From IMG/VR virus record IMGVR_UViG_3300030012_002335, positions 1-38,262 of that record: DNA of 38,262 nt; one strand, 5' to 3'. Of the stretch, positions 2,189-26,316 are shown in pieces (positions within the stretch are counted from its first letter, which is position 1; every line of letters begins with the position of its first letter). The translations under genes were made by a program, and so were the position numbers. The stretch comes from a virus. A model generated the notes under the pieces. The model had not been told where the DNA came from. It ran no database searches and saw only the letters and a list, made by a program, of their open reading frames with translations.

Positions 2189-2237
2189 CCATAAGGGACT
2201 GTGTAGTCTCTCTGATGATTCCGAAAGGATGAAATGG
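2189..2237 (+). ncRNA. Candidate type III hammerhead ribozyme in the early leader
   Basis: The core is complete. CCAU (2189-2192) is the 5' strand of helix III and A2193 is the cleavage residue (AUA site). Helix I is AGGGACU (2194-2200) with AGUCUCU (2205-2211) closed by a GUGU loop. CUGAUGA follows at 2212-2218. Helix II is UUCC-GAAA-GGAU (2219-2230) with a U-U outer mismatch, and GAAA is at 2231-2234. AUGG (2234-2237) pairs back to CCAU. Helix III is only 4 bp and the loops are plain tetraloops, so activity is less certain than for the four type I copies. Cleavage would remove the structured leader and leave the first mRNA starting with a 7-bp hairpin. Confidence 0.6.
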
Positions 2238-2262
2238 CTAATTAATTTTTATAGGAGAAAAT

Positions 2263-2490
2263 ATGAACTTTCCAATAAGCAAAAACAAACAAGGTGGTCC
2301 GATGGACTATCTCTACAGAGGGTTTGAGGTTCAAATATCTCGGACTTATGGTGGTGGCTTCAAAGGGGTTGATCACTACTGCATAGGGTCTATGTATTAT
2401 TCACCGGATTTTAATACGGGCTCTACTAACAGAGATCGATTCAAGAAGATGATGGATCGCAGAATCGACAGCACTACTGACGAGACTTAA
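2263..2490 (+). CDS. Unrecognised 75-residue early protein whose 3' end is part of a ribozyme
   Basis: The start follows TAGGAGAAAAT, the SD form used by every gene after a hammerhead here. The product is aromatic- and glycine-rich (YLYRGFEVQISRTYGGGF, then YCIGSMYYSPDF) and ends in a basic helix (RDRFKKMMDRRI). It loosely resembles small phage proteins with a Y-x-G-(Y/F)-E-(I/V) strand followed by a helix, but I assign no function. The last codons (S-T-T-D-E-T-stop) are read from the 5' half of the following hammerhead; the TAA lies in its helix II loop. Ribosomes would therefore unfold the ribozyme. Confidence 0.75.
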   Translation: MNFPISKNKQGGPMDYLYRGFEVQISRTYGGGFKGVDHYCIGSMYYSPDFNTGSTNRDRFKKMMDRRIDSTTDET

Positions 2491-2522
2491 TGAGTCGAAA
2501 CTCCCTCCGGGGAGTCTAGTGC
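2471..2522 (+). ncRNA. Type I hammerhead ribozyme 1
   Basis: Helix I is GCACUA (2471-2476) with UAGUGC (2517-2522), six perfect pairs. The core CUGACGA is at 2477-2483. Helix II is GACU (2484-2487) with AGUC (2493-2496) and loop UAAUG. GAAA is at 2497-2500. Helix III is CUCCC (2501-2505) with GGGAG (2510-2514) and a UCCG tetraloop. A2500-U2515 is the 15.1-16.1 pair and C2516 the cleavage residue (GUC). Every invariant hammerhead position is present. After cleavage the 3' product soon forms the hairpin GGGA-AUUA-UCCC at 2523-2534, upstream of the next gene's SD. Confidence 0.93.
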
Positions 2523-2557
2523 GGGAATTATCCCAAACAAATTAAAAAGGAGAAAAT

Positions 2558-2962
2558 ATGAATAGATTTGTAATATTTAACAAGGCTACTGGTAAGAGAT
2601 ACGGTATTGAATCTTACGGTGGTTACAAAGAATGGAAAACAGAGCGAGCCGCCAAGAGTGCTTTAACTAGGCTAAAGAAAAAACATCTTAAAAGGTTTGA
2701 AGATGAGATTAATGGATATATGGATAGGCGTGAGATTTCTACAAAGGCAAGCAGAGATGCTTACTTTGAGGAGCGAAAACAGTACGATCCGGAATGGAGG
2801 CTCTATGAAGGCTTATGTGGATCAGAGGTTGTTACTTACGATTACTTCTACGAGAACGAGCCAATGGTTGAGCGTACTAACTTGATGACCGGTAAAAAGT
2901 ATATGGAACGCCTTAACAGACCGGGGTTTTTATCACCGTCTTGTGATAGCTACTACACATAA
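2558..2962 (+). CDS. Unrecognised 134-residue early protein
   Basis: The start is set by AAAAGGAGAAAAT directly before the ATG. The N-terminus (NRFVIFNKATGKRYGIESYGGYKEWKTERAAKSAL in pieces) looks like a small beta unit followed by a helix rich in K and R. The middle is a charged helix, and the C-terminus is aromatic and polar. This layout is common in phage early proteins that bind host factors, but no family is recognised. Its TAA ends at 2962 and the next hammerhead begins at 2963, so gene and ribozyme abut exactly. Confidence 0.75.
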   Translation: MNRFVIFNKATGKRYGIESYGGYKEWKTERAAKSALTRLKKKHLKRFEDEINGYMDRREISTKASRDAYFEERKQYDPEWRLYEGLCGSEVVTYDYFYENEPMVERTNLMTGKKYMERLNRPGFLSPSCDSYYT

Positions 2963-3034
2963 GTGCTACTGACGAGGTCTGATTGACCGAAACTTTTCTT
3001 TCCCCCGATTACGGGGGTCAGAGAAGTCTAGTAC
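2963..3034 (+). ncRNA. Type I hammerhead ribozyme 2
   Basis: Helix I is GUGCUA (2963-2968) with UAGUAC (3029-3034), including one G-U. CUGACGA is at 2969-2975. Helix II is GGUC (2976-2979) with GACC (2985-2988) and loop UGAUU. GAAA is at 2989-2992. The long helix III pairs CUUUUCU (from 2993) with AGAGAAG (3020-3026), then after a small internal loop a C5 tract (3002-3006) with a G5 tract (3013-3017), loop GAUUAC. U3027 and C3028 form the GUC cleavage site. The helices differ in sequence from ribozyme 1 but keep pairing. The 3' product begins near the hairpin GGGC-AAUAAA-GCCC (3036-3049). Confidence 0.93.
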
Positions 3035-3060
3035 AGGGCAATAAAGCCCAAGGAGAAAAT

Positions 3061-3261
3061 ATGAATAGATTACAAAATCTAGACTTGGCGAAGGATCGTC
3101 AAGAGAGCGACATGGTTCAGCACATTACCGATGTGCTACTCCATGGTGGTGCTAACGATGCTGACATCCAAGAGATGTTGGACTCAGCTGGTATTGATTT
3201 AAAGAGAACCTCTAAGGGTTTTTCTTTAACTCTTAACTTTGGTTGGGTGCAGGCTAACTGA
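3061..3261 (+). CDS. Unrecognised 66-residue early protein
   Basis: The ATG at 3061 follows AAGGAGAAAAT; an upstream in-frame start would lie inside the ribozyme and is rejected. The acidic helical N-terminal half (NLDLAKDRQESDMVQHITDVLL) is followed by a second helix (DADIQEMLDSAGIDL) and a short beta end (GFSLTLNFGWV). No family is recognised. The stop TGA at 3259-3261 is also part of the CUGAUGA core of the next hammerhead, so translation termination and ribozyme folding compete for the same bases. Confidence 0.7.
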   Translation: MNRLQNLDLAKDRQESDMVQHITDVLLHGGANDADIQEMLDSAGIDLKRTSKGFSLTLNFGWVQAN

Positions 3262-3317
3262 TGATCGCTGATTGCGTGAAACCTTCTTCTTTCCCCCGAA
3301 AGGAGGAGGTATTAGTC
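3252..3317 (+). ncRNA. Type I hammerhead ribozyme 3 (GUA site, core overlaps a stop codon)
   Basis: Helix I is GGCUAA (3252-3257) with UUAGUC (3312-3317), including one G-U. CUGAUGA is at 3258-3264. Helix II is CGC (3266-3268) with GCG (3274-3276), loop UGAUU, and a U-U at its base. GAAA is at 3278-3281. Helix III is 12 continuous pairs (3282-3293 with 3298-3309, with G-U pairs) closed by CCCC. The cleavage residue is A3311 (GUA rather than GUC), allowed by the NUH rule. The 3' strand of helix III contains an AGGAGG SD-like run, sequestered in the fold, distinct from the true SD at 3328-3334. Confidence 0.9.
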
Positions 3318-3338
3318 AAAATTCAAAAGGAGGAAAAT

Positions 3339-3623
3339 ATGAATTCAAAACTAAAATACGATTACCTTGAAACTATTAAGGTATTAACTAGGGATGGCAT
3401 CAAAGTTTGTTACAAAACTGAGCGACCAAGAATTTTTAATACTTGGTTGATTGATGAATTTGATCTGCCTGATACAAGGGCACCAAAATTCGGCAAAGCT
3501 ATTGATGCGTTACATGATGCAATTTGTCGCATGGATGAGGAATATCAAGAAAAGATTTTCAATACTCCTATCAAAGAGCTCATAAACAAATTCGCAGAGC
3601 TAGAAGAGCTAAGGAAGCTGTAA
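3339..3623 (+). CDS. Unrecognised 94-residue early protein
   Basis: The start at 3339 follows AAAGGAGGAAAAT. The protein begins MNSKLKYDYLETIKVL and contains a beta-rich N-terminal half (GIKVCYKTERPRIFNTWLI), then an acidic helical C-terminal half (FGKAIDALHDAICRMDEEYQEKI and ELINKFAELEELRKL) with coiled-coil character. It is the first gene of a three-gene set (with 3626 and 3727) lying between ribozymes 3 and 4, so these three should remain on one processed mRNA. Function unknown. Confidence 0.7.
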   Translation: MNSKLKYDYLETIKVLTRDGIKVCYKTERPRIFNTWLIDEFDLPDTRAPKFGKAIDALHDAICRMDEEYQEKIFNTPIKELINKFAELEELRKL

Positions 3624-3625
3624 TC

Positions 3626-3730
3626 ATGGATAACAAAAAACTTTTAGACTTCTACATCTTTTCGATAACCGGCTTAATTGCCATTAGCTATTTGTTCATC
3701 GCTTATAAATTACAAGGAGGTATCGTATGA
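3626..3730 (+). CDS. 34-residue single-span membrane protein
   Basis: ATG at 3626, two bases after the previous stop, opens 34 codons: a charged start MDNKKLLDF, a hydrophobic stretch YIFSITGLIAISYLFIAY, and a short tail KLQGGIV. The only SD-like sequence is in the preceding gene (AAGGAAGC). Its stop overlaps the next gene's start (ATGA at 3727-3730), and its own last codons contain the AAGGAGGT that serves the next gene. A single transmembrane helix of this size could be a holin-like or membrane-modulating micropeptide; no closer assignment is possible. Confidence 0.55.
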   Translation: MDNKKLLDFYIFSITGLIAISYLFIAYKLQGGIV

Positions 3731-4074
3731 ACACACTACAAGAAACCATTGCAAATCTTGAGGAAGAAATTCTTTCCAAGGGTTATGAAACTTTGGATCA
3801 CATCACGAAGCTTAGAGCTCATGTGTATGGAAATGCAACTTCGGCAGATCATGATTACTACGAAATGTTGCTTGGCATCATTGAGAAGCACAGATTAAAT
3901 GCAGAGGCTGTGGTTCTTAACAAAAAAGTTAAGGACCTAACCGATGAGGACTTTTCTTGTACTTACTACTTTGAGGACTTAGATGATGTTTTCTTTGCAC
4001 TTTCTGATGTTGGTATATCTAAGAAGCAAGCTTTAAATATGAAGCTCTCTACTGCTTTAGCTAAGTGCAACTAA
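3727..4074 (+). CDS. Unrecognised 115-residue acidic helical early protein
   Basis: The SD AAGGAGGT lies 6 bases before the ATG, which overlaps the stop of the 34-residue gene. The N-terminal half is helical (TLQETIANLEEEILSKGYETLDHITKL), followed by YEMLLGIIEKHRLNAEAVVLNKKVKDL and an acidic aromatic stretch (DFSCTYYFEDLDDVFFAL). The strong negative charge is typical of small phage inhibitors or DNA mimics, but that is speculation. It ends three bases before ribozyme 4 begins. Confidence 0.7.
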   Translation: MNTLQETIANLEEEILSKGYETLDHITKLRAHVYGNATSADHDYYEMLLGIIEKHRLNAEAVVLNKKVKDLTDEDFSCTYYFEDLDDVFFALSDVGISKKQALNMKLSTALAKCN

Positions 4075-4077
4075 TCA

Positions 4078-4143
4078 GCATTACTGACGAGGCTTAATTA
4101 GCCGAAACCCTTTTCTTCTCCCCCGAAGGAGAGGGTCTAATGC
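4078..4143 (+). ncRNA. Type I hammerhead ribozyme 4
   Basis: Helix I is GCAUUA (4078-4083) with UAAUGC (4138-4143), six perfect pairs. CUGACGA is at 4084-4090. Helix II is GGCU (4091-4094) with AGCC (4100-4103), loop UAAUU. GAAA is at 4104-4107. Helix III is 11 pairs (4108-4118 with 4125-4135, two G-U) closed by a UCCCCC loop. U4136-C4137 gives the GUC cleavage site. It is the cleanest copy and lies wholly between two genes. The product mRNA would start with UAAUGC about 28 bases before the next ATG. Confidence 0.94.
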
Positions 4144-4165: not shown

Positions 4166-4360
4166 ATGCAAACACTTAAAATAAAAACTAAAAATGTCTT
4201 TGGTAGAGACTTGTTCTACCCGGTATGTCAGCTTTCACAAAAGCTGGCAGAATTTCAGGGGTCAAAATCATTTACTGAATTTGACTTAAAGCAACTTAAG
4301 AACATGGGCTTCAAGCTTGAGTTTGTGGCTGATGTTCCTGAATTTGCAGAGGAGGTGTAA
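4166..4360 (+). CDS. Unrecognised 64-residue early protein
   Basis: The start follows AAAGGAGGAAAAT, the SD cassette seen after each ribozyme. It begins QTLKIKTKNVFGRDLFYPVC, then a helix (LSQKLAEFQGSKSF) and TEFDLKQLKNMGFKLEFV. The F-x-x-x-D-L-x-x-L-K-x-x-G-F segment is like small phage proteins with a helix-then-strand fold, but no family is assigned. It is the first gene of the last and longest segment of the early transcript, after which no further ribozymes are seen. Confidence 0.7.
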   Translation: MQTLKIKTKNVFGRDLFYPVCQLSQKLAEFQGSKSFTEFDLKQLKNMGFKLEFVADVPEFAEEV

Positions 4361-12503: not shown

Positions 12504-12527
12504 GTCTAAACATTATTGGAGGTATCA

Positions 12528-13142
12528 ATGACAACAAGTAATAAAATATATGAATCGTTAGCCAATGTTCAAAATTGGTTGATAGAAAACCCAATTGAGA
12601 AATCTAAATTTAATTCTTTCTCAAAATATAATTACAGAGGTATCGATGATGTCTACGCATCATTTGCTAAACCACTCTGTGATAACAAAATCGTCACCAA
12701 CTTTCTCCCGGATCTTAAGATAAGAGTCAGGACCCTTGACGATGGTAAGACTACAGAGTCAATGCTCAAGGGAACAATTAGATTCCTATCATTAGAAGAT
12801 GGGTCCTTTGTGGATACTGCATATGTAGGTAAAAGCAAGTCAACTCAAGGTAGAGATTTAGAAGCGGCAAAATCTTTTGCATATCGTGATGCACTAATTC
12901 AATTCTTCTGTGTGCCTTTTGAGCAAACTGTAGAGCCTGAAGAGGTGGGTGATGATGATAAGGCTCCTGAAGATAGTCTGTTAGATATGTTTAAAGGAGA
13001 GATCGCAAATGCAAAATCAAAAGCAGATCAAGAAAAAGTTTTTAAGAAGTTTGATAAAGCTGCGAATTTAGCTGAAGACAAAACAGTTAGAGAACAGGTT
13101 GGTTTGTACTACGCAAAAGTAGTAGGTGCTAACAATGGCTGA
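12528..13142 (+). CDS. erf: ERF family single-strand annealing protein
   Basis: 204 residues from ATG 12528 behind GGAGGTATCA; an in-frame TTG 12 bp earlier is part of the SD. The FNSFSKYNYRGIDDVYASFAKPLCDNKI segment (residues about 28-55) is characteristic of ERF proteins (Y-x-Y-x-x-x-(D/E)-x-(V/I)), and AAKSFAYRDALIQFF near residue 115 matches the helix before the acidic tail. ERF anneals single strands during recombination and genome circularisation. Its partner exonuclease is the next gene, overlapping by 8 bp. Confidence 0.9.
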   Translation: MTTSNKIYESLANVQNWLIENPIEKSKFNSFSKYNYRGIDDVYASFAKPLCDNKIVTNFLPDLKIRVRTLDDGKTTESMLKGTIRFLSLEDGSFVDTAYVGKSKSTQGRDLEAAKSFAYRDALIQFFCVPFEQTVEPEEVGDDDKAPEDSLLDMFKGEIANAKSKADQEKVFKKFDKAANLAEDKTVREQVGLYYAKVVGANNG

Positions 13143-14106
13143 ACAAAGCAAAAAAATTGTTCAAGGAACTAAGGAGTGGTTTGCTCTTAGAAAAGGGAAG
13201 ATTACCGGAACAAGAATACAAAAAGCTGCTAAGGAATGTATTTGGACTAAGGGTAATCAGTGGGATGCTTTAGCTAGAGATATGTTTAGAGAAGAGAATG
13301 GTTTATCTCAGGACCCTTTTGATGCTAGAGCTTTGTATGCAATTAGCTATGGTAAAGATAATGAGCCAAAGGCAATACAAAGACTCAAAGAAGAAATGGG
13401 GTTTCAAATACAAGACTCTCCTTTCGTTAACCACCCTGACTATGATTGGCTAGGTATGAGCCCTGATGGAATTATTCTTAACGGTCCCGGAGGTGGGCTG
13501 TCTGCTGTAGAAATTAAGTGCCCGCAAACAAAACCGGTTACTGATGTTAAAAAACAAAAAAGAAACTATTGGCATCAAATGCAATTAGGCATGGAATGCA
13601 TGGACATAGATAAGATGCTTTTCTTTCAGTGGTATGAAGATAGTCACTACATAGAGTGGGTTGATAGAGATCCTGATTGGGCAGACATTTATATTCCTAA
13701 AGCAAAAGAATTTATGGACTGGTATAAGGAAGCAAAAAAAGATGCTGAGAATATTACTAGTTGGTCCATGGACAAAACAGAACCCGGTGTTCCTTACAAA
13801 GATATTGAGGACAACGATGATACTAAAAAACTTGCCAGCGTGTTGCTTGAAATAAAAGTAGCACAACAAAAAATAAAAGAGCTTGATGCTGTCAAGAAGG
13901 AGCTATCCGAAAGGCTAGTAAAAGAAAACAATGGGGCTTTTAGAACTTCATCTGTGAAGTGTCACCTAACTCAAGCTACCGGGAGGATTGATTATAAAAG
14001 ATTGATCGAGGATAAGGATATCCCGGTTCATGAGGTAGAGGGCTATAGGTCAGAGGGAGCTACTAGGATTTACACCAGACTTATGGAGGATAAAGATGCA
14101 AGTTAA
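13135..14106 (+). CDS. YqaJ/lambda-exonuclease-type recombination nuclease
   Basis: 323 residues from ATG 13135. The N-terminus has VQGTKEWFALRKGKITGTRI, the (Q-G-T-x-E-W-x-x-x-R-x-G-K-(I/L)-T) opening of YqaJ domains. Catalytic residues are D in GMSPDGII (about residue 110) and E and K in VEIKCP (about 126-128), followed by HQMQLGMEC, the conserved Q helix. It should resect 5' ends to give single strands for ERF. The C-terminal 100 residues form a helical extension (KKLASVLLEIKVAQQKIKEL) with a coiled coil. Confidence 0.92.
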   Translation: MAEQSKKIVQGTKEWFALRKGKITGTRIQKAAKECIWTKGNQWDALARDMFREENGLSQDPFDARALYAISYGKDNEPKAIQRLKEEMGFQIQDSPFVNHPDYDWLGMSPDGIILNGPGGGLSAVEIKCPQTKPVTDVKKQKRNYWHQMQLGMECMDIDKMLFFQWYEDSHYIEWVDRDPDWADIYIPKAKEFMDWYKEAKKDAENITSWSMDKTEPGVPYKDIEDNDDTKKLASVLLEIKVAQQKIKELDAVKKELSERLVKENNGAFRTSSVKCHLTQATGRIDYKRLIEDKDIPVHEVEGYRSEGATRIYTRLMEDKDAS

Positions 14107-18225: not shown

Positions 18226-21200
18226 TTATTTATTCCTTTCTTTTTCTTCCTCTTCAAGAGCATCAAAGTAAGTACCATTAAACTCTTTCATAATCTTTAA
18301 TCTTTCAAGATCTAATTCGTCATATATTTTGTAATATTTGACCGGATCCTTTTCATAATAATCTTGTCTTGCCTCTTGCATAAGTTTCTTATTTTCTAGT
18401 AGAAGTTCTTCGACATAGTTTACTAAGCTGTTGTTTCCATATTTTCTTGTAGCATATCTATTTAATAAATTACCAAGGCTTGCTTTACCTGTATCTCCCC
18501 CAACCCTCTTAAGGAAGTCTTCTGCATCTTCTCCCGGTTCTAAAGCTTCACTTAATTGTCTGTATGCAAACTCAATATCTTTTACTTTCTCAATGTTTTC
18601 GTAAAACATCTGCATATCTTCTGAGTCTCTAGGTGAAACTGTTAACCTTCTCAAAAAAGGTATCTGGTCTGATCTTGGTCTATCTGGAGAGAACAATAAT
18701 TGATAGGATCGTTTTGTGGTTCTTCCGATACCACCGGTTGCGTAATCTAAGAGATACTGAATAACAGCTGGATCTATATCAATATCACCGCTATAGAATT
18801 CGTTTCCACCGGAAGCATCATTAATACTTCTAGTAATTCCTTGAATAAACTTCAACACCCTTTTATTTTCGTTGTATGACCTAGGATCTCTTTGACCAAA
18901 CCTTGGTTCAAAATATATCGGTGTACCAAAATGATCTCTATTGGCTAATAACTCAGCCGCAGGTTTTGCAAATGTTGGTGTGACAGATATACCTAAATCT
19001 CTGATAACTGATCCCTCGTTTATTGAAACAGAGATCGGAGCATAGTTATGCATTAATGACTCACCTAAATCAAGCCCAGCTTTTGCTAATGATTTGTCAT
19101 AGTTATCCAATATGTTACCCATCATTAATTCAGCAGTAACTCTTCCTGTGTTTGCAAATACAGCATAACCGTATGGCATTGGGATACCGAGCCCTATTGG
19201 GTACTTTCTTCCATCCTTGCCAACAACATTGTACTTAGAGCCAGATCCCCACTTCTCTATTTCCACTTCTCCGTCAACAAATTCTATATTTGGGAATAAG
19301 AAAATATATTTAGTTTGTTTTTCCCATTCAGATATTTTGTCGTAATAAAGCCTTCCATCTTCATCTTCTCCACTCACCAATATGTTGTATATCGTGGATG
19401 CATTTCCAACACCATACAAGCCTGCTAATACTTTAAGTTTTCTTGAAGATACTTGTCCGGGTTTTAGTCCTCGTAAAACATTTACTGTGCCTTGAATACT
19501 TGCATTAAAGAACATATATAAAGCATTAGCAGTCGGACCCATTGTTCCCATTCTATTAAAGTTAATTGTCAGGTTTTTTGCTAACGCTGCGGCTCTTTCA
19601 TAAGTTGCCGGGGTAGCATTTTCTAACCCACCAAAAGATTCAATGTATCCCTCAAAGGCAGTAAATCTAGCCGCATTCTCAATTCCAGAGTTAAGTCTTT
19701 CAATAACAGCAAACACTGATTTGTATGCTGATTTAGCATTGCCTTTAAAGTTTCCAGAATACATGTCTCTTAAATCTTGGAATTCTTTAGTAAGTTGTTC
19801 TATTGTTTTTTGTTCGATATATCCGGTTTCTCCGCCAAACTCTTTAAACTTTCTGAGTAATATTTGTTTTCTTGCCATATCGTCAGACAATCCATATTTT
19901 TCTTCAACAGCAGCTACAACCTCTGGTGTTATGTCTGTGCCCTGTGAAGCAATAGTATCAAGCTCATTTTTAATAGCATCTGCATTTAAAGATCTAGACT
20001 TTTCAAACTTAACTAGATTGACAGCATTAGATAAAATATTTTTTGATGTGTAATATTTTTTAGAAATCTCTAAAGCTTTTGCCCTGCCTCCGTCAATCTC
20101 CTCTTCAGCCATTAAGTTAAAGTAACCTGTTTGTACATCTCTTAAAAAGTTATTAACCATAAACGCTGGATCAAGAGATGTGTTTACCATGGATAAGTAT
20201 CTTGTAACTGCTCTAACACCCCTCATGAAGTTATCACTAATCTCAGAATCAAAATTATCAAACCCACGAGCAAGCCTTTCGTCATAAACTTCTACATACT
20301 TTTGCTCACCATTTTCTTTAAAACCTATTCTTGATTTTCCTTTCACAGAATCCCATGCTGCATCGACTTTTTTGATTTGACCAACATCCTCAGAAACACT
20401 CCATAAATCACTTGGGAAAGCTCTAGCTAATTCTGCTAACGATTTAACGACCCTATTTTTCTCGCTTGTAATAGCTGCTCCGGTAGCCTGAACAATTGAT
20501 TGTTGTAATGGCGAGTCTGCTAAAGACTCCCTACCTTTTGCTGCTTTAATAAGCTGTCCTGAAACAGTCATCTGGCTGTTAATTAAATTGTTTCTCGTTT
20601 TTGGTCTTTTTAATTCTCTCCCGGTATCGGGGTCGATAAGAGTATCTTCTGCATAACCAACTAGAGGAACATAATATTTATATCTAGCTGACCAATCCTG
20701 TATTAATTCTTCTGCGATTAAACCAGACTCGGATAATGTTTCTCTTGTTTTTTCTAATAAAGGTCTATGAAAATCTTCATAAGCTTTTAGTAGGTTTTTG
20801 CCTTTTGTAAAACTGCCTGTTGCTTCTTGTTTTTTAAGATCATAAATAACACCATATTTTTTTAGAGTTATTACTGCATCCTCTGTTGTAATACCAGAAC
20901 CTGACTCTGCTTTTGCAAGTTTGTTTTTGGCAGTCGTAAGCTTTCCTTTAGCAATAGCAATGTCTTGTTTACTTGAATCAGGATTTTTTTGGACCTGTTT
21001 TAAATTCTGTTCTGCCTCTTTTACTTTATCTTCAAAAAGTGTTGGCAGATATGCATTTCTTTCTGGGGCATGCAGGTTATATATGAAGTGATTATATTGC
21101 TCTTCTGATATACCTTTGCTTGTAAGGAAATCAAGAAGTGGCTCATAGTAATCTTCTCTGATGTCTCTTAACAGATCTTTAACCCTTCCCGGGAAAATAT

Positions 21201-24200
21201 CAGTTTGTGTTGATACTCTCCAATCTCTTGAATCTGGGTCCACACCAACATCCTTAAGCTTTTGCACTATGACATTGTTACCAAATTGCTCCAAAATACT
21301 TTCTTCAATTGTCCACAATCTACCAAATTTATTTGCAACTGTGATGTTGAAGTCTTCCATATAATTTGCAAAACGACCAACCTCTGGTAAAGAGAAATTA
21401 CCATCTGGATCTGGACCCTTTGGTGGTGCTGGTGGGGTTGGTGGGGTTGGAGGCTCTATATTATCAAGAGCCGCATCAATCGCATCAGATTGCTCTTTAG
21501 GTATGTCTTGTTCTTTTGCTTTAGGCTCTAAGCTTCTTGCTGAGGACTCTGATCCTGTGGTTGGGAAGGATCCATCTGGACCTCTTTCTGGGGACTCATT
21601 TCTGTATTTGTCATAGATCGCATCGACTTTTGACCTGATACCATCAAGCCTTTTTCGTATGCTTCCTTTCGCAAGTCGCCCTTGTAAGTAACCTTCTCCA
21701 TCCGGATTATCTCTCCAATTATTAGTTAGATACTGTGTATTATACTTAATGCCATGTGCTGAATCAAACCCAACACCCTCTATAGCTATAGATGACATAG
21801 CCCTCTCTATCTTATTATCAAAGTCTTCTACAATTTTGCCATTGAATTTAAAGTTGATAATAGATATGCCGCTTGCATCCATCTGAGTAAAGCCATCAAT
21901 CCCTTCAGCTTGCAGGGCAGCATTAATTTGTTTTCTAAGCATTGATGAAATCTCAATGTTATCGCCTGTTGTTGTATCAAGAAATCTAATTACAGAGCCT
22001 GAATTAACACTTTCATTAGATAGATCTGCTATATCTTCATCTAAAATGCTCTCATTGGAGGAGAAGTATGGCACTGCATCTTGTCTAAAGACATAGCCCC
22101 ATGCTCTCAAGAAATCATCTGCAAATTCTAAATCACGCTCACTAAATTGTTGCTCTCCTTCTACTTTCTCCAAGATAAGATTAGCAAGAATGTTTGGATT
22201 TATCTTGCCATCATATGCACCAAAGCTGTGTGAGAATTTATAAAGACCTGTACCGGGAAGTAGATTAAGTATTTCATTCCTTCCCTCTGATGTCGTAATA
22301 ACATCAAGAAGTTCTTTTGTCATTTGTGCTTTCTTTCTATCAGATAGTTTCTCTGCAAAAGCAAACTGTTCTAATGATTGTGTTGGTATCACTTCAGCTG
22401 TAACAACGCTAGAAGCTTTTTCCAAAAATGTTTCATAACCAACATACTCAGCTGGCTTACCTTGCTCTTGTAGTTGTTTATTTCTTACATAAGTCCAAAG
22501 TACAGCCTGCATCTCCATTGGAGATAGGTTGTCATTATTTTTTTCATTAAATATTTTTGTGGCTTCTTTGATGACAGCTGTACCGTATCTATGATGAGAT
22601 AATTGTCCTTGACCCTTGGCAAATCCTAATAATTTAAACATCCATGTGTCCATGGTTACCGCATCTGGGTTTTTACCTGTTAGATTTTCATAAAAGCTTT
22701 GAAGCTTCCAGCCAACACCCTCTAGCTTTTGTCCAAAGTCTGGTGCCTCTAATGCTGCCTTAGCAAACTTACCAGCCTCTGGCTGGAATCCCGGTAGGGG
22801 ATCTGCCCCTTTTGCCATAGCAACTAAAGATCTTAATGTGTATGCTAAATTTGTTTCTACCGGTGTTTGTGAAGAGTATACTGTTAGCAGTCGCATTACA
22901 TCTTCTTTTAGTTTTGCGTTGCCCTGCACAAGCTTGTCAACTTCTTCGTTTACATTTTTGTACCAATTTCTACTTTCATCAATTAAAGATAAATCTTTTT
23001 GTTCTGCAAGCTTGACCAAATCATTGGCAAGTTTATTGAAATCTTTTTGTGTGTTTTTAAATACTCCGGGTTTTATTCGTGGAGCACCATCAAAGGTGCC
23101 ATCTGATTTAGGTGAAAGATCACCTATTGGAATATAGTTTACTTGTTCTGTAGGTCGAATGTCGTCTGGGTCTTGTCTGACAACATCTCTTTCCATTCCT
23201 CTACCGGTTCCCCGCTGCTGAGAGCCGCTTTGAGAATATCGATCAGGGACTCTTCTGGAGTATACTTGAGAATCTGCATCGGCACGAGGTGATTGAAACG
23301 CATCTCGTATTCCGAAGCCAACTTGTGAAAATCTGTTATTAGATACTGCATTCTCTATTCCTTTTATAAGTTTTGTAGTTTCTGGAGCATTTTCCTCAAA
23401 AAACTTAGGGTTATTGTAATACAAACCAAACGCTTGTGCGAATAACTCTGATTTAATAAATTCATTCAGACCTTGATCCAACATTTGAATGTTGCCTTTT
23501 TGATCCATATAAGTCTGCTCACTTACAGGTGTGCCACCACTTTCCGACCACTTAACCAAGTCAATTAATATTCTGTTAAATGGATAAGCAAGTGCACGAC
23601 CAGAGAATTCGCTAGCAAAATTGTCTGTTTGTGATTTGAAGTACATGCTAAACATTTCTCTCATCACAGCACCACCTGTTTCAAACTTAAACGATTGTAA
23701 TGACTGTATGGGTAGCTCAGTAATCTTATCAACGCCAAATTGTTTTTTGATTCTTTTGGTTTCAGTTTCAAAATTAATAAAATCAAATAAAGGCGAATCA
23801 GAAGAAAATGGTTTGCGATCTACATTTATGTTTTCACTTTGAGTAAAGTTATAGTCAAGGTGATGTGCGATTTCATGAACAAGCGTTTGTTGTAAATTAG
23901 CCTGAGCTCCATATGTAAGCTGACCAATATTGGTATTTTCATCCTCAAACCTATTTTTAATTGGTCCTGTGAATTTATTAGATTGCAGCAAAACCCTTGA
24001 GCTTAATGTTATTGTTGCGGCATTAGGTATATATAAACCGAGTGATGTTTGGTCTTTGGTGTTTGCTTTAAATTGACTGTGTACGCCTATAAAATTAAGC
24101 CCTCTTAAAGCTCCTTCTGGTAAGCCATTTTTAAATGCCGCATATAAGGCACGAGCAACAGCATCTGCTTCACCAGCATCTAAATCTCTAGCATTGCTAT

Positions 24201-26316
24201 AATTTAAATCGGCAGAAAAATTTTGATAACTGTAAGTGTATTTTGAAGACTCTCCTTCACCTGCTTTATATGCTTGTCTAACCAAAGACTCAAAAGGGGC
24301 ATCGCCAATGTCATAGGTATTTAATGGTTTTTCCTCAACAAAACCATCTGCATCTGTTTTATCAGTAGCTTCTTTAATGGTTATAAGCTCTAGGTTTTTA
24401 CTATTCCAAGCTAAAGGATCAACAAATTTTTGCCTTACTGAATCTACCTCTGGTTTTACATCATTTAAAGCACTTTCAAGGGTTGCTTCACTTATCAATG
24501 TTGGCTCTGCTCCAGCCTCAAGAGCATAATCAATATCGTAATCTCTTATTTCTTGGTCGTTCTGTGGGTAAAAATTATCGTAATCTTTTTTAGATAACGG
24601 TTGTAATTCAGATTTTTTTTGAAATCTTGCAAGGTAAGATTGTAATACAGACTTATCTTCTTCTAGTTTACTTATTGTTGTTTCATTCTCAGTGGCATTA
24701 ATTTGTCCGTTGATCTCAATAATTCTCTGGCTGACATCTTGATTGAATGTTTCTGGATCAATTAGCTGATCTACCCCCATAATATTTAAAACCTTTTTAC
24801 CTTCCACTAGTGCATCTGCTAACTCATTACCATCTAAATCAGATATCTCTTGTTGCAATTGATTTGCGAGTTCTATCTCTTCCTCGCTCAGGCTCTCCGC
24901 TACAGGGTCATTTTTAATGATTTGTTGAGCAAGATATTCATCTGGTAACACTTCAGGCATTACAAAGTTATAGTATTGTCTGTTTGGTATAAATGGTTGT
25001 CCTGACTCATCTTGAGTCATTTGAACAATTGACCTTGCTCCCGGATCAAATTGTTTTGATGCATGTAAAAAACTAAATGTTTCATCAATAGATTTGTAAC
25101 TTGCATTAACTCGTTTTGTTGCTGTATCAAGTTCTCTTCCTATTCTTCTTGCAATGTTTGGATCTAACTCATTTAATGTCGCTTTTATATCTGGAGCAAA
25201 AGCAGCAGTACCCTGCATTCCAATCATTCCACCTGCTCCAACAACAGTTGCTATGGATGTCATAGCTGCATTATCAAGCATAACATCTATCCAAGAAGGT
25301 CCATCATAGTTGGGGTTGTCTTTGTTTGCCCAAGCGAACCTAAGATCGGTGTTAACGCCACTCATTGCATTATTGGTTTCCTGAATAATGGTGTTGACAT
25401 TCTCTGCACCAAGCTCTCTTATTACTGTGCCGAAACCATCCCTTACAAAAGTTTCAACATTGGCACCGTTTGCTTTCCAATATCTTTTTAAGGTTTTACT
25501 AACAAAAGGCATTGGGAAAGCCTCAGTGCCAATTTCTGCTAAAGCATTAATGGTAGAAACCTTGACTGCCTTTTCATGACTCAGCCCACTCATACGAGCT
25601 TGCCTGTATGATGATCCCATCTCGTAATACCCGAAAATCGGCAGCATGGGTAACATGTATGCTGGATTCTTTGTTGCCATAGAACCCAATATTGCTGGTG
25701 TCATAAGAATTAAACTATCAATTCCAGCCGATACAGTTTTTTCAAATTCAGAAAGATTTGAAGTTTTATTTATAGAATCAATTTGATTTTGCAATTCATT
25801 CCATTGATCTGCATTATCTTCAATAAAGTCAATATAGTTATTAACTATTTCTGCTTGTTTTTGTGGGGTGTAACTATTAAATATTTCTTCTTGTTCTGCC
25901 CTTGCACTTTCAAGTAAGTTTTGTTCTTGACCTCTAAGCATTCTTGATGCAGCACCCTCACCAAAAGCAATACCAAAAGAATATCTGGGTTTCTTAATAC
26001 CTAGCTCCACCCTAAAGTCTTCTTCTTTGCCCATATATTGTTGATCTAAAACAAACTTCCTAAAGTTAGGAACAATTTTTTTTACAGAAGCGGATGTAAC
26101 TTTAGGTAAACTTAGTGCTGGTTTATATGTTTGTTTGATTGATAGGGGTCCAAAGCCTAGCCCGGGTGTATCAAGAAAAGTATCAAAGAAAGATTCATCA
26201 TCTTCTTTAATAAGACCTGTTGATTGATCTAACCCTAAAATGTCTTGAACAAGATCTTCTTTTTCTTCTTCGGGTATTAGGGAGAAGGGGTCCTGTATTC
26301 TGTTTTCATCTGCCAC
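18226..26316 (-). CDS. Giant virion-associated polyprotein with zinc-protease motif and LPD-type domains
   Basis: 2,696 residues, GTG start behind AAGG. The N-terminal 350 residues are helical with hydrophobic glycine-rich stretches (TSIATVVGAGGMIGM) that could insert in membranes. H814-E-I-A-H818 (LVHEIAHHLDY) is a metallopeptidase site. Around 1,230 the KLLGFAKGQGQLSHHRYGTA segment is typical of large polyvalent phage proteins. A proline-rich linker (about 1,622-1,634) separates the halves. The last third (MVNNFLRDVQTGYFNLM near 2,050; ENAARFTAFEGY near 2,215; FNASIQGTVN) matches the LPD38-type module. By analogy it is packaged in the capsid and enters the host with DNA. No polymerase or lysozyme motif was found. 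Confidence 0.8.
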   Translation of the reverse strand: MADENRIQDPFSLIPEEEKEDLVQDILGLDQSTGLIKEDDESFFDTFLDTPGLGFGPLSIKQTYKPALSLPKVTSASVKKIVPNFRKFVLDQQYMGKEEDFRVELGIKKPRYSFGIAFGEGAASRMLRGQEQNLLESARAEQEEIFNSYTPQKQAEIVNNYIDFIEDNADQWNELQNQIDSINKTSNLSEFEKTVSAGIDSLILMTPAILGSMATKNPAYMLPMLPIFGYYEMGSSYRQARMSGLSHEKAVKVSTINALAEIGTEAFPMPFVSKTLKRYWKANGANVETFVRDGFGTVIRELGAENVNTIIQETNNAMSGVNTDLRFAWANKDNPNYDGPSWIDVMLDNAAMTSIATVVGAGGMIGMQGTAAFAPDIKATLNELDPNIARRIGRELDTATKRVNASYKSIDETFSFLHASKQFDPGARSIVQMTQDESGQPFIPNRQYYNFVMPEVLPDEYLAQQIIKNDPVAESLSEEEIELANQLQQEISDLDGNELADALVEGKKVLNIMGVDQLIDPETFNQDVSQRIIEINGQINATENETTISKLEEDKSVLQSYLARFQKKSELQPLSKKDYDNFYPQNDQEIRDYDIDYALEAGAEPTLISEATLESALNDVKPEVDSVRQKFVDPLAWNSKNLELITIKEATDKTDADGFVEEKPLNTYDIGDAPFESLVRQAYKAGEGESSKYTYSYQNFSADLNYSNARDLDAGEADAVARALYAAFKNGLPEGALRGLNFIGVHSQFKANTKDQTSLGLYIPNAATITLSSRVLLQSNKFTGPIKNRFEDENTNIGQLTYGAQANLQQTLVHEIAHHLDYNFTQSENINVDRKPFSSDSPLFDFINFETETKRIKKQFGVDKITELPIQSLQSFKFETGGAVMREMFSMYFKSQTDNFASEFSGRALAYPFNRILIDLVKWSESGGTPVSEQTYMDQKGNIQMLDQGLNEFIKSELFAQAFGLYYNNPKFFEENAPETTKLIKGIENAVSNNRFSQVGFGIRDAFQSPRADADSQVYSRRVPDRYSQSGSQQRGTGRGMERDVVRQDPDDIRPTEQVNYIPIGDLSPKSDGTFDGAPRIKPGVFKNTQKDFNKLANDLVKLAEQKDLSLIDESRNWYKNVNEEVDKLVQGNAKLKEDVMRLLTVYSSQTPVETNLAYTLRSLVAMAKGADPLPGFQPEAGKFAKAALEAPDFGQKLEGVGWKLQSFYENLTGKNPDAVTMDTWMFKLLGFAKGQGQLSHHRYGTAVIKEATKIFNEKNNDNLSPMEMQAVLWTYVRNKQLQEQGKPAEYVGYETFLEKASSVVTAEVIPTQSLEQFAFAEKLSDRKKAQMTKELLDVITTSEGRNEILNLLPGTGLYKFSHSFGAYDGKINPNILANLILEKVEGEQQFSERDLEFADDFLRAWGYVFRQDAVPYFSSNESILDEDIADLSNESVNSGSVIRFLDTTTGDNIEISSMLRKQINAALQAEGIDGFTQMDASGISIINFKFNGKIVEDFDNKIERAMSSIAIEGVGFDSAHGIKYNTQYLTNNWRDNPDGEGYLQGRLAKGSIRKRLDGIRSKVDAIYDKYRNESPERGPDGSFPTTGSESSARSLEPKAKEQDIPKEQSDAIDAALDNIEPPTPPTPPAPPKGPDPDGNFSLPEVGRFANYMEDFNITVANKFGRLWTIEESILEQFGNNVIVQKLKDVGVDPDSRDWRVSTQTDIFPGRVKDLLRDIREDYYEPLLDFLTSKGISEEQYNHFIYNLHAPERNAYLPTLFEDKVKEAEQNLKQVQKNPDSSKQDIAIAKGKLTTAKNKLAKAESGSGITTEDAVITLKKYGVIYDLKKQEATGSFTKGKNLLKAYEDFHRPLLEKTRETLSESGLIAEELIQDWSARYKYYVPLVGYAEDTLIDPDTGRELKRPKTRNNLINSQMTVSGQLIKAAKGRESLADSPLQQSIVQATGAAITSEKNRVVKSLAELARAFPSDLWSVSEDVGQIKKVDAAWDSVKGKSRIGFKENGEQKYVEVYDERLARGFDNFDSEISDNFMRGVRAVTRYLSMVNTSLDPAFMVNNFLRDVQTGYFNLMAEEEIDGGRAKALEISKKYYTSKNILSNAVNLVKFEKSRSLNADAIKNELDTIASQGTDITPEVVAAVEEKYGLSDDMARKQILLRKFKEFGGETGYIEQKTIEQLTKEFQDLRDMYSGNFKGNAKSAYKSVFAVIERLNSGIENAARFTAFEGYIESFGGLENATPATYERAAALAKNLTINFNRMGTMGPTANALYMFFNASIQGTVNVLRGLKPGQVSSRKLKVLAGLYGVGNASTIYNILVSGEDEDGRLYYDKISEWEKQTKYIFLFPNIEFVDGEVEIEKWGSGSKYNVVGKDGRKYPIGLGIPMPYGYAVFANTGRVTAELMMGNILDNYDKSLAKAGLDLGESLMHNYAPISVSINEGSVIRDLGISVTPTFAKPAAELLANRDHFGTPIYFEPRFGQRDPRSYNENKRVLKFIQGITRSINDASGGNEFYSGDIDIDPAVIQYLLDYATGGIGRTTKRSYQLLFSPDRPRSDQIPFLRRLTVSPRDSEDMQMFYENIEKVKDIEFAYRQLSEALEPGEDAEDFLKRVGGDTGKASLGNLLNRYATRKYGNNSLVNYVEELLLENKKLMQEARQDYYEKDPVKYYKIYDELDLERLKIMKEFNGTYFDALEEEEKERNK

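Follow-up and report, generated by a model that had tools for sequence, protein, structure and literature searches.

A serial array of hammerhead ribozymes at the gene boundaries of a phage operon, with turnover of the gene cassettes between them

Organization of the hammerhead array

The DNA analyzed here (the window) is the 38,262-base contig of an uncultivated phage, IMG/VR record IMGVR_UViG_3300030012_002335, in which hammerhead ribozymes alternate with small genes between positions 2189 and 4143. A structural scan that required the conserved core, three helices, the A15.1-U16.1 pair and a base other than G at position 17 (H17, the base 5' of the cut) yielded exactly five complete hammerheads in the window, all on the plus strand; 200 dinucleotide-shuffled versions of the full window gave none. 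Hammerhead 1 (2189-2237) belongs to type III, with helix III open, and its predicted cut lies after A2193. The other four are of type I, namely hammerheads 2 (2471-2522, predicted cut after C2516), 3 (2963-3034, after C3028), 4 (3252-3317, after A3311) and 5 (4078-4143, after C4137). Copy 1 was detected by the scan and by a sub-threshold Rfam match, copies 2, 3 and 5 were detected by the scan, the covariance model R1 described below and fold prediction, and copy 4 was detected by the scan and R1. An earlier note on this DNA had proposed four type I hammerheads and one of type III; all five were found at the proposed places, the independent scan placed H17 at the same five positions to the base, and the four helix I pairings quoted in the note are correct.

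The core elements CUGANGA and GAAA and the A15.1-U16.1 pair are present in all five copies, and position 17 is C in three of them and A in two. A G10.1-C11.1 pair, which is common in hammerheads without being absolute, occurs in copies 2, 3 and 5, with U.U at this place in copies 1 and 4. The loop II of 5 nucleotides (nt) is constrained, and helix I is followed by a segment that is A-rich or forms a hairpin. The minimum-energy predictions for all four type I copies contain every hammerhead helix.

The genes of the array lie on the plus strand and were called as open reading frames (ORFs) with a Shine-Dalgarno (SD) sequence. A leader (1990-2188), which was aligned with the leaders of the related contigs L106, L107, L125 and L135, stands ahead of the first ribozyme. 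It is followed by gene 1 (2263-2490; 75 amino acids (aa), family f3), gene 2 (2558-2962; 134 aa, family f1), gene 3 (3061-3261; 66 aa, family f9), whose stop codon lies within the ribozyme core CUGA, and a three-gene unit at 3339-3623 (94 aa), 3626-3730 (34 aa) and 3727-4074 (115 aa). The first gene past the last ribozyme (4166-4360; 64 aa, family f10) is succeeded by further tightly packed genes without ribozymes. The Pfam search gave no match for gene 1 and none above the cut-off for the 94-aa and 115-aa proteins of the three-gene unit. The operon may be an early one, as the earlier note called it.

Covariance models and covariation of the ribozymes

At the Rfam gathering score, which is a search cut-off and not a defining property of hammerheads, none of the five copies in the window was matched. 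A permissive search placed Hammerhead_3 (RF00008) at 2186-2240 with 26.7 bits (E = 0.0077) and the RAGATH-1 hammerhead (RF03152) at 2439-2521 (25.5 bits) and 4063-4142 (23.2 bits). Copy 1 thereby matches the type III layout from end to end, but remains below the gathering score of 48.5, with a short helix III and the U.U at 10.1-11.1. Copies 2 and 5 share the type I layout and the core of the RAGATH-1 hammerhead, but fall below its gathering score of 56.3, and the extra 5' stem of that family is matched only loosely and within the upstream gene. The earlier note had named the lack of covariance-model hits above threshold as evidence against its proposal, and an independent covariance model, R1, was therefore built from 14 type I ribozymes of other IMG/VR contigs, with the window and its near relatives L125 and L135 excluded. 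R1 matched all four type I copies of the window, at 2471 (E = 2e-17, 58 bits), 4079 (E = 3.3e-13), 2967 (E = 2.3e-8) and 3252 (E = 5.4e-5), and the next-best match had an E-value of 0.46. The R1 alignment of the weakest copy, at 3252, is off in its 3' half; the predicted fold of this copy is clean. The covariance-model check thus failed with the Rfam cut-offs and succeeded with R1, and the empty Rfam search is judged to be a sensitivity gap.

Covariation was analyzed in 36 distinct type I ribozymes, the four of the window included. Standard pairs occupy 99.8% of the pair cells, compared with 31-37% when the partners are slid, a percentage that is partly built in because the scan selecting these ribozymes demanded helices of at least 3-4 pairs. 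The count of compensatory changes is free of this effect: both-sided changes occur in some sequences at 12 of the 15 pairs, in agreement with the covariation claimed by the earlier note, and the covariation score is 0.851 versus 0.07-0.15 with slid partners. The core is invariant throughout the set except for position 7 (N7). The type III copy lies outside R1 and is supported by its context, by the sub-threshold Rfam match and by compensatory changes in helix III, which reads CCAU/AUGG, CUGU/ACAG or CUAU/AUAG among relatives. At the level of sequence and predicted fold, these data confirm the five motifs as hammerheads.

Placement of the ribozymes relative to reading frames

The array region of the window is about 81% coding. 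Among the matches listed, not one of 73 type I cuts in the arrays lies inside a called ORF; the nearest stop codon upstream of these 73 sites is usually 23-70 nt away, and the distance from the cut to the next start codon has a median of 28 nt and is most often 26-30 nt. In the window, the type I cuts precede the next start codon by about 27-41 nt. The corresponding distance for type III copies is longer (median 67 nt, range 61-72 nt), since here the body of the ribozyme remains part of the downstream message. The earlier note placed each copy after a stop codon and before the SD sequence of the next gene. This description holds for the cut sites and fails for the 5' arms of ribozymes 2 and 4, which overlap the 3' ends of genes 1 and 3, and for copy 1, which sits in the leader with no gene upstream on the plus strand. 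Genes 1 and 3 terminate within ribozymes 2 and 4, with stop codons that end at 2490 and 3261, ahead of the cut in each case, and the messages would therefore keep whole reading frames. A scan of the array boundaries found no intrinsic terminators, and no T-run follows helix III.

Arrays in related phages

A search with a 560-aa virion protein led to 70 related loci, and R1 detected at least one type I copy in 11 of 12 related contigs of at least 39 kb. A core-pattern scan of viral contigs returned at least 120 stretches, of which at least 99 contain a complete hammerhead and at least 29 contain two or more. The contigs L106, L107, L135 and L158 each carry one type III and four type I copies, and the largest array, in L125, comprises seven ribozymes, one of type III and six of type I. 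Among the matches listed, the type III copy is the 5'-most in all 12 arrays that pair it with other copies. Several of these arrays are close relatives; a crude grouping by kinship, which is our own, gives about 6-7 lineages and a chance on the order of 4e-4 for the type III-first order. In L175, a second type III copy (L175:6037-6084) lies further down the contig, directly after a terminator-like hairpin, and judging from its position it may open another ribozyme-led transcription unit.

Among cultured relatives, the core-pattern matches in seven isolates with a virion protein about 30-34% identical held no complete hammerhead. No match was obtained when the array region was compared with phage DNA, and a 106-base query around ribozyme 4 gave weak short matches, none of which spanned most of the query. 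In GTDB genomes, 119 core-pattern loci were found, of which seven contain a complete hammerhead and two of these seven contain two; the strict core pattern therefore yields mostly chance matches there.

Turnover of gene cassettes at the ribozymes

Clustering of the small proteins encoded between the ribozymes revealed that families f3, f1 and f4 keep their order and that the others are replaced between ribozymes, so that in relatives the intervening genes are exchanged as units. The sister contig L125, about 97.7% identical to the window, carries two extra ribozyme-gene units between the genes of the 66-aa (f9) and 94-aa (f18) proteins. Ribozyme 4 of the window is a mosaic of three ribozymes of L125: its left flank equals that of ribozyme A (150/150), its body, including the unusual U.U and A17, equals ribozyme B (66/66), and its right flank and gene equal those of ribozyme C (21/21 and 150/150). 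In other pairs of relatives, blocks of homology often start at the 5' end of a ribozyme. An Erf-type annealing protein and a YqaJ exonuclease (12516-14106, plus strand; Pfam PF04404 and PF09588) could be the machinery that exchanges cassettes at short stretches of homology, and Erf is present in all eight records searched.

Further features of the operon and the contig

The last 26 nt of the leader, at about 2160-2186 (GGCGAGGCGAATCCAAAATCAGAGTG), are nearly identical in relatives whose leaders have otherwise diverged. The leader also holds a hairpin with a ACUGAACC..GG-type loop, and a cut by ribozyme 1 would free the leader as a separate RNA. Directly 3' of helix I of ribozyme 2, in the region of the new 5' end, lies a small hairpin, GGGA-AUUA-UCCC (2523-2534), and ribozyme 3 likewise has one directly after helix I (3036-3049). 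Such hairpins recur in several relatives with a GCACUA-type helix I, and their stems vary with pairing kept (GGGA/UCCC, GGGC/GCCC, GGAAC/GUUCC, GAGC/GCUC). Their overall enrichment is modest, with 24% of type I flanks compared with 14% of shuffled flanks. A kissing interaction between loop II and this hairpin looked suggestive by eye in copies 2 and 3 and was rejected in view of the occurrence of the hairpin in only a subset and of this modest excess.

The gene 2 protein ends in a stretch of about 32 aa (...RPGFLSPSCDSYYT) with similarity (E = 0.004) to part of a hypothetical protein encoded by Sinorhizobium phage Phosso, whose genome measures 469 kb, and a similar ending recurs in relatives right before a ribozyme. 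Nine copies of the motif T(T/C)C4-7GA lie on the plus strand of the window (1267, 1896, 3000, 3291, 4119, 4847, 7709, 9795 and 32697) and none on the other strand, whatever the direction of the genes. Three copies lie inside helix III of ribozymes, and helix III of relatives contains similar runs. The hexamer TTCCCC is not over-represented (15 copies versus 13 in shuffles) and has a strand skew of 12:3.

The contig further encodes a DnaB-like helicase, a tyrosine integrase and virion and tail proteins; since an integrase is encoded, the gene content suggests a temperate phage. Among the leftward virion and tail genes is that of a 2696-aa protein (18226-26316, minus strand) with the large polyvalent protein domain LPD38 and DUF7178.

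Interpretation of the array

The central claim of the earlier note, that serial hammerheads stand at the gene boundaries of the operon, is the best-supported reading of the locus in view of the model matches, the covariation, the conservation and the absence of type I cuts from reading frames. We regard cotranscriptional dicing of the mRNA by these ribozymes as the best explanation and, on the sequence data, as a fairly probable one. It is built on the observed motifs, their pairing, covariation, conservation, placement and order and the turnover of the cassettes, and it would entail transcription across the array, self-cleavage, protection of the ends and swapping by Erf-type recombination. 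By established chemistry, hammerhead cleavage yields an upstream piece that ends in a 2',3'-cyclic phosphate and a downstream piece that begins with a 5'-OH. A rightward transcript starting upstream of 2189 would cut itself at five places while being made. Cutting by the leader's type III copy would place the two hairpins of that ribozyme at the 5' terminus of the first message. Each type I copy would give the preceding message a 3' end that consists of the helix II and III hairpins and bears a 2',3'-cyclic phosphate, with the downstream message beginning with a 5'-OH about 27-41 nt ahead of its start codon. The products would be messages of one to three genes whose ends are defined and protected and whose leaders are uniformly short, made without need for host RNases, and their stability and dose could be set for each unit. 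Since the hairpins of a type I copy stay upstream and those of a type III copy downstream, the type III-first order would give a first message structured at both ends and later internal messages with a structured 3' end and a short 5'-OH leader.

The repeat of ribozyme, SD sequence and start codon would also make each unit a cassette that recombination could replace with its expression left intact. A tentative extension, to which we give slightly less than even weight, is a modular self-dicing operon in which the type III copy caps the leader, the type I copies punctuate cassettes of one to three genes, and recombination at the ribozymes inserts, deletes or swaps cassettes. A ribozyme would then be both an mRNA processor and a cassette boundary, in the latter role somewhat like the attC sites of integrons.

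Several points weigh against cotranscriptional dicing. No promoter stood out in the leader, where the scan performed no better than on shuffles. The type III copy folded alone is marginal and not the clear minimum (-10.4 versus -10.8 kcal/mol), and copies 1 and 4 may be slower because of their U.U at 10.1-11.1 and A17. In copies 2 and 4, the 5' arms would be opened by ribosomes that translate genes 1 and 3. The cassette junctions are known from metagenome assemblies, with roughly 8-22 nt of homology; assembly chimeras as their source are unlikely, but not impossible, because such homology is short for mis-assembly.

The replacement of cassettes bounded by ribozymes, the mosaic ribozyme 4 and the presence of Erf and YqaJ genes would also suit ribozymes kept mainly as a recombination module for small accessory gene cassettes, with RNA cleavage incidental. 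Pure DNA homology would conserve the sequence, however, whereas the helices vary with pairing kept around an invariant catalytic core, so that selection acts on the RNA fold; nor does a recombination module predict the constant type III-first order, and we consider it unlikely. A comparably low probability is assigned to cleavage that destabilizes the messages or uncouples them in time, lowering the expression of distal genes or being regulated by translation of the upstream gene. Translation and folding would compete at ribozymes 2 and 4, which contain the stop codons of the genes before them (1 and 3), but in other copies the stop is upstream of the ribozyme. Unmasking of the SD sequence by cleavage was considered as well and rejected, as the predicted fold probabilities barely differ before and after the cut; by these predictions, the making of ends fits better than an on/off switch of translation.

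All internal units would carry the 5'-OH and 2',3'-cyclic phosphate ends suitable for circularization by an RNA ligase, for instance RtcB of the host. RtcB is absent from eight phage records of the group, although the host may have it, and circular or spliced products were sought by Perreault et al. (2011) with none detected (PMC3088659); this outcome seems quite improbable. A view of the motifs as inactive structures that resemble hammerheads through decay or by chance would agree with the missing matches at the Rfam gathering level, but is contradicted by the invariant core, the pairing with covariation, the R1 E-values and the empty shuffles to such an extent that we give it almost no credence.

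Comparison with known systems and significance

Clustered hammerheads flanking prophage genes were described by Perreault et al. (2011), whose paper gives Clostridium scindens, Azorhizobium caulinodans and a triple set of Agrobacterium tumefaciens as examples, reports cleavage of tandem sets in vitro and of the triple set in E. coli, and proposes the dicing of long phage transcripts into mRNAs the length of one gene or an operon (PMC3088659). By analogy, these activities provide a precedent for activity of the present array, in which two or more hammerheads likewise flank genes on one strand of phage DNA. As in those clusters, several hammerheads flank single genes or short blocks, and the flanked genes are not constant. 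As far as the text of that paper goes, the present array differs in its five ribozymes (up to seven in the sister contig) within 2-3 kb, in its conservation across a phage group, in the type III copy that always precedes the type I copies and in the cassette exchange at ribozymes documented by sequence comparison, whereas the tandem sets of the paper were tested for cleavage and the present array is known from its sequence. The earlier note's description of a self-dicing array as unusual is therefore only partly right: the idea of dicing is not new, and, judged by the same text, the new elements are the array size, the conservation, the type III-first order and the cassette turnover at the ribozymes. 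A search of the open-access literature (titles and openings of abstracts, with subscription papers and preprints outside its scope) found no such arrays elsewhere. The array thus extends a known but little-studied phenomenon, and the Rfam cut-offs miss all five of its copies.

The conservation of the array, the fixed order of types and the narrow distance to the start codon lead to specific predictions on the ends, lengths and half-lives of the messages and on the effects of core mutations, for which the array offers a compact 2-kb test construct. The cassette turnover points to a possible role of ribozymes as joints in the exchange of genes, and the array as a whole bears on the long-standing question of what hammerhead ribozymes do for phages.

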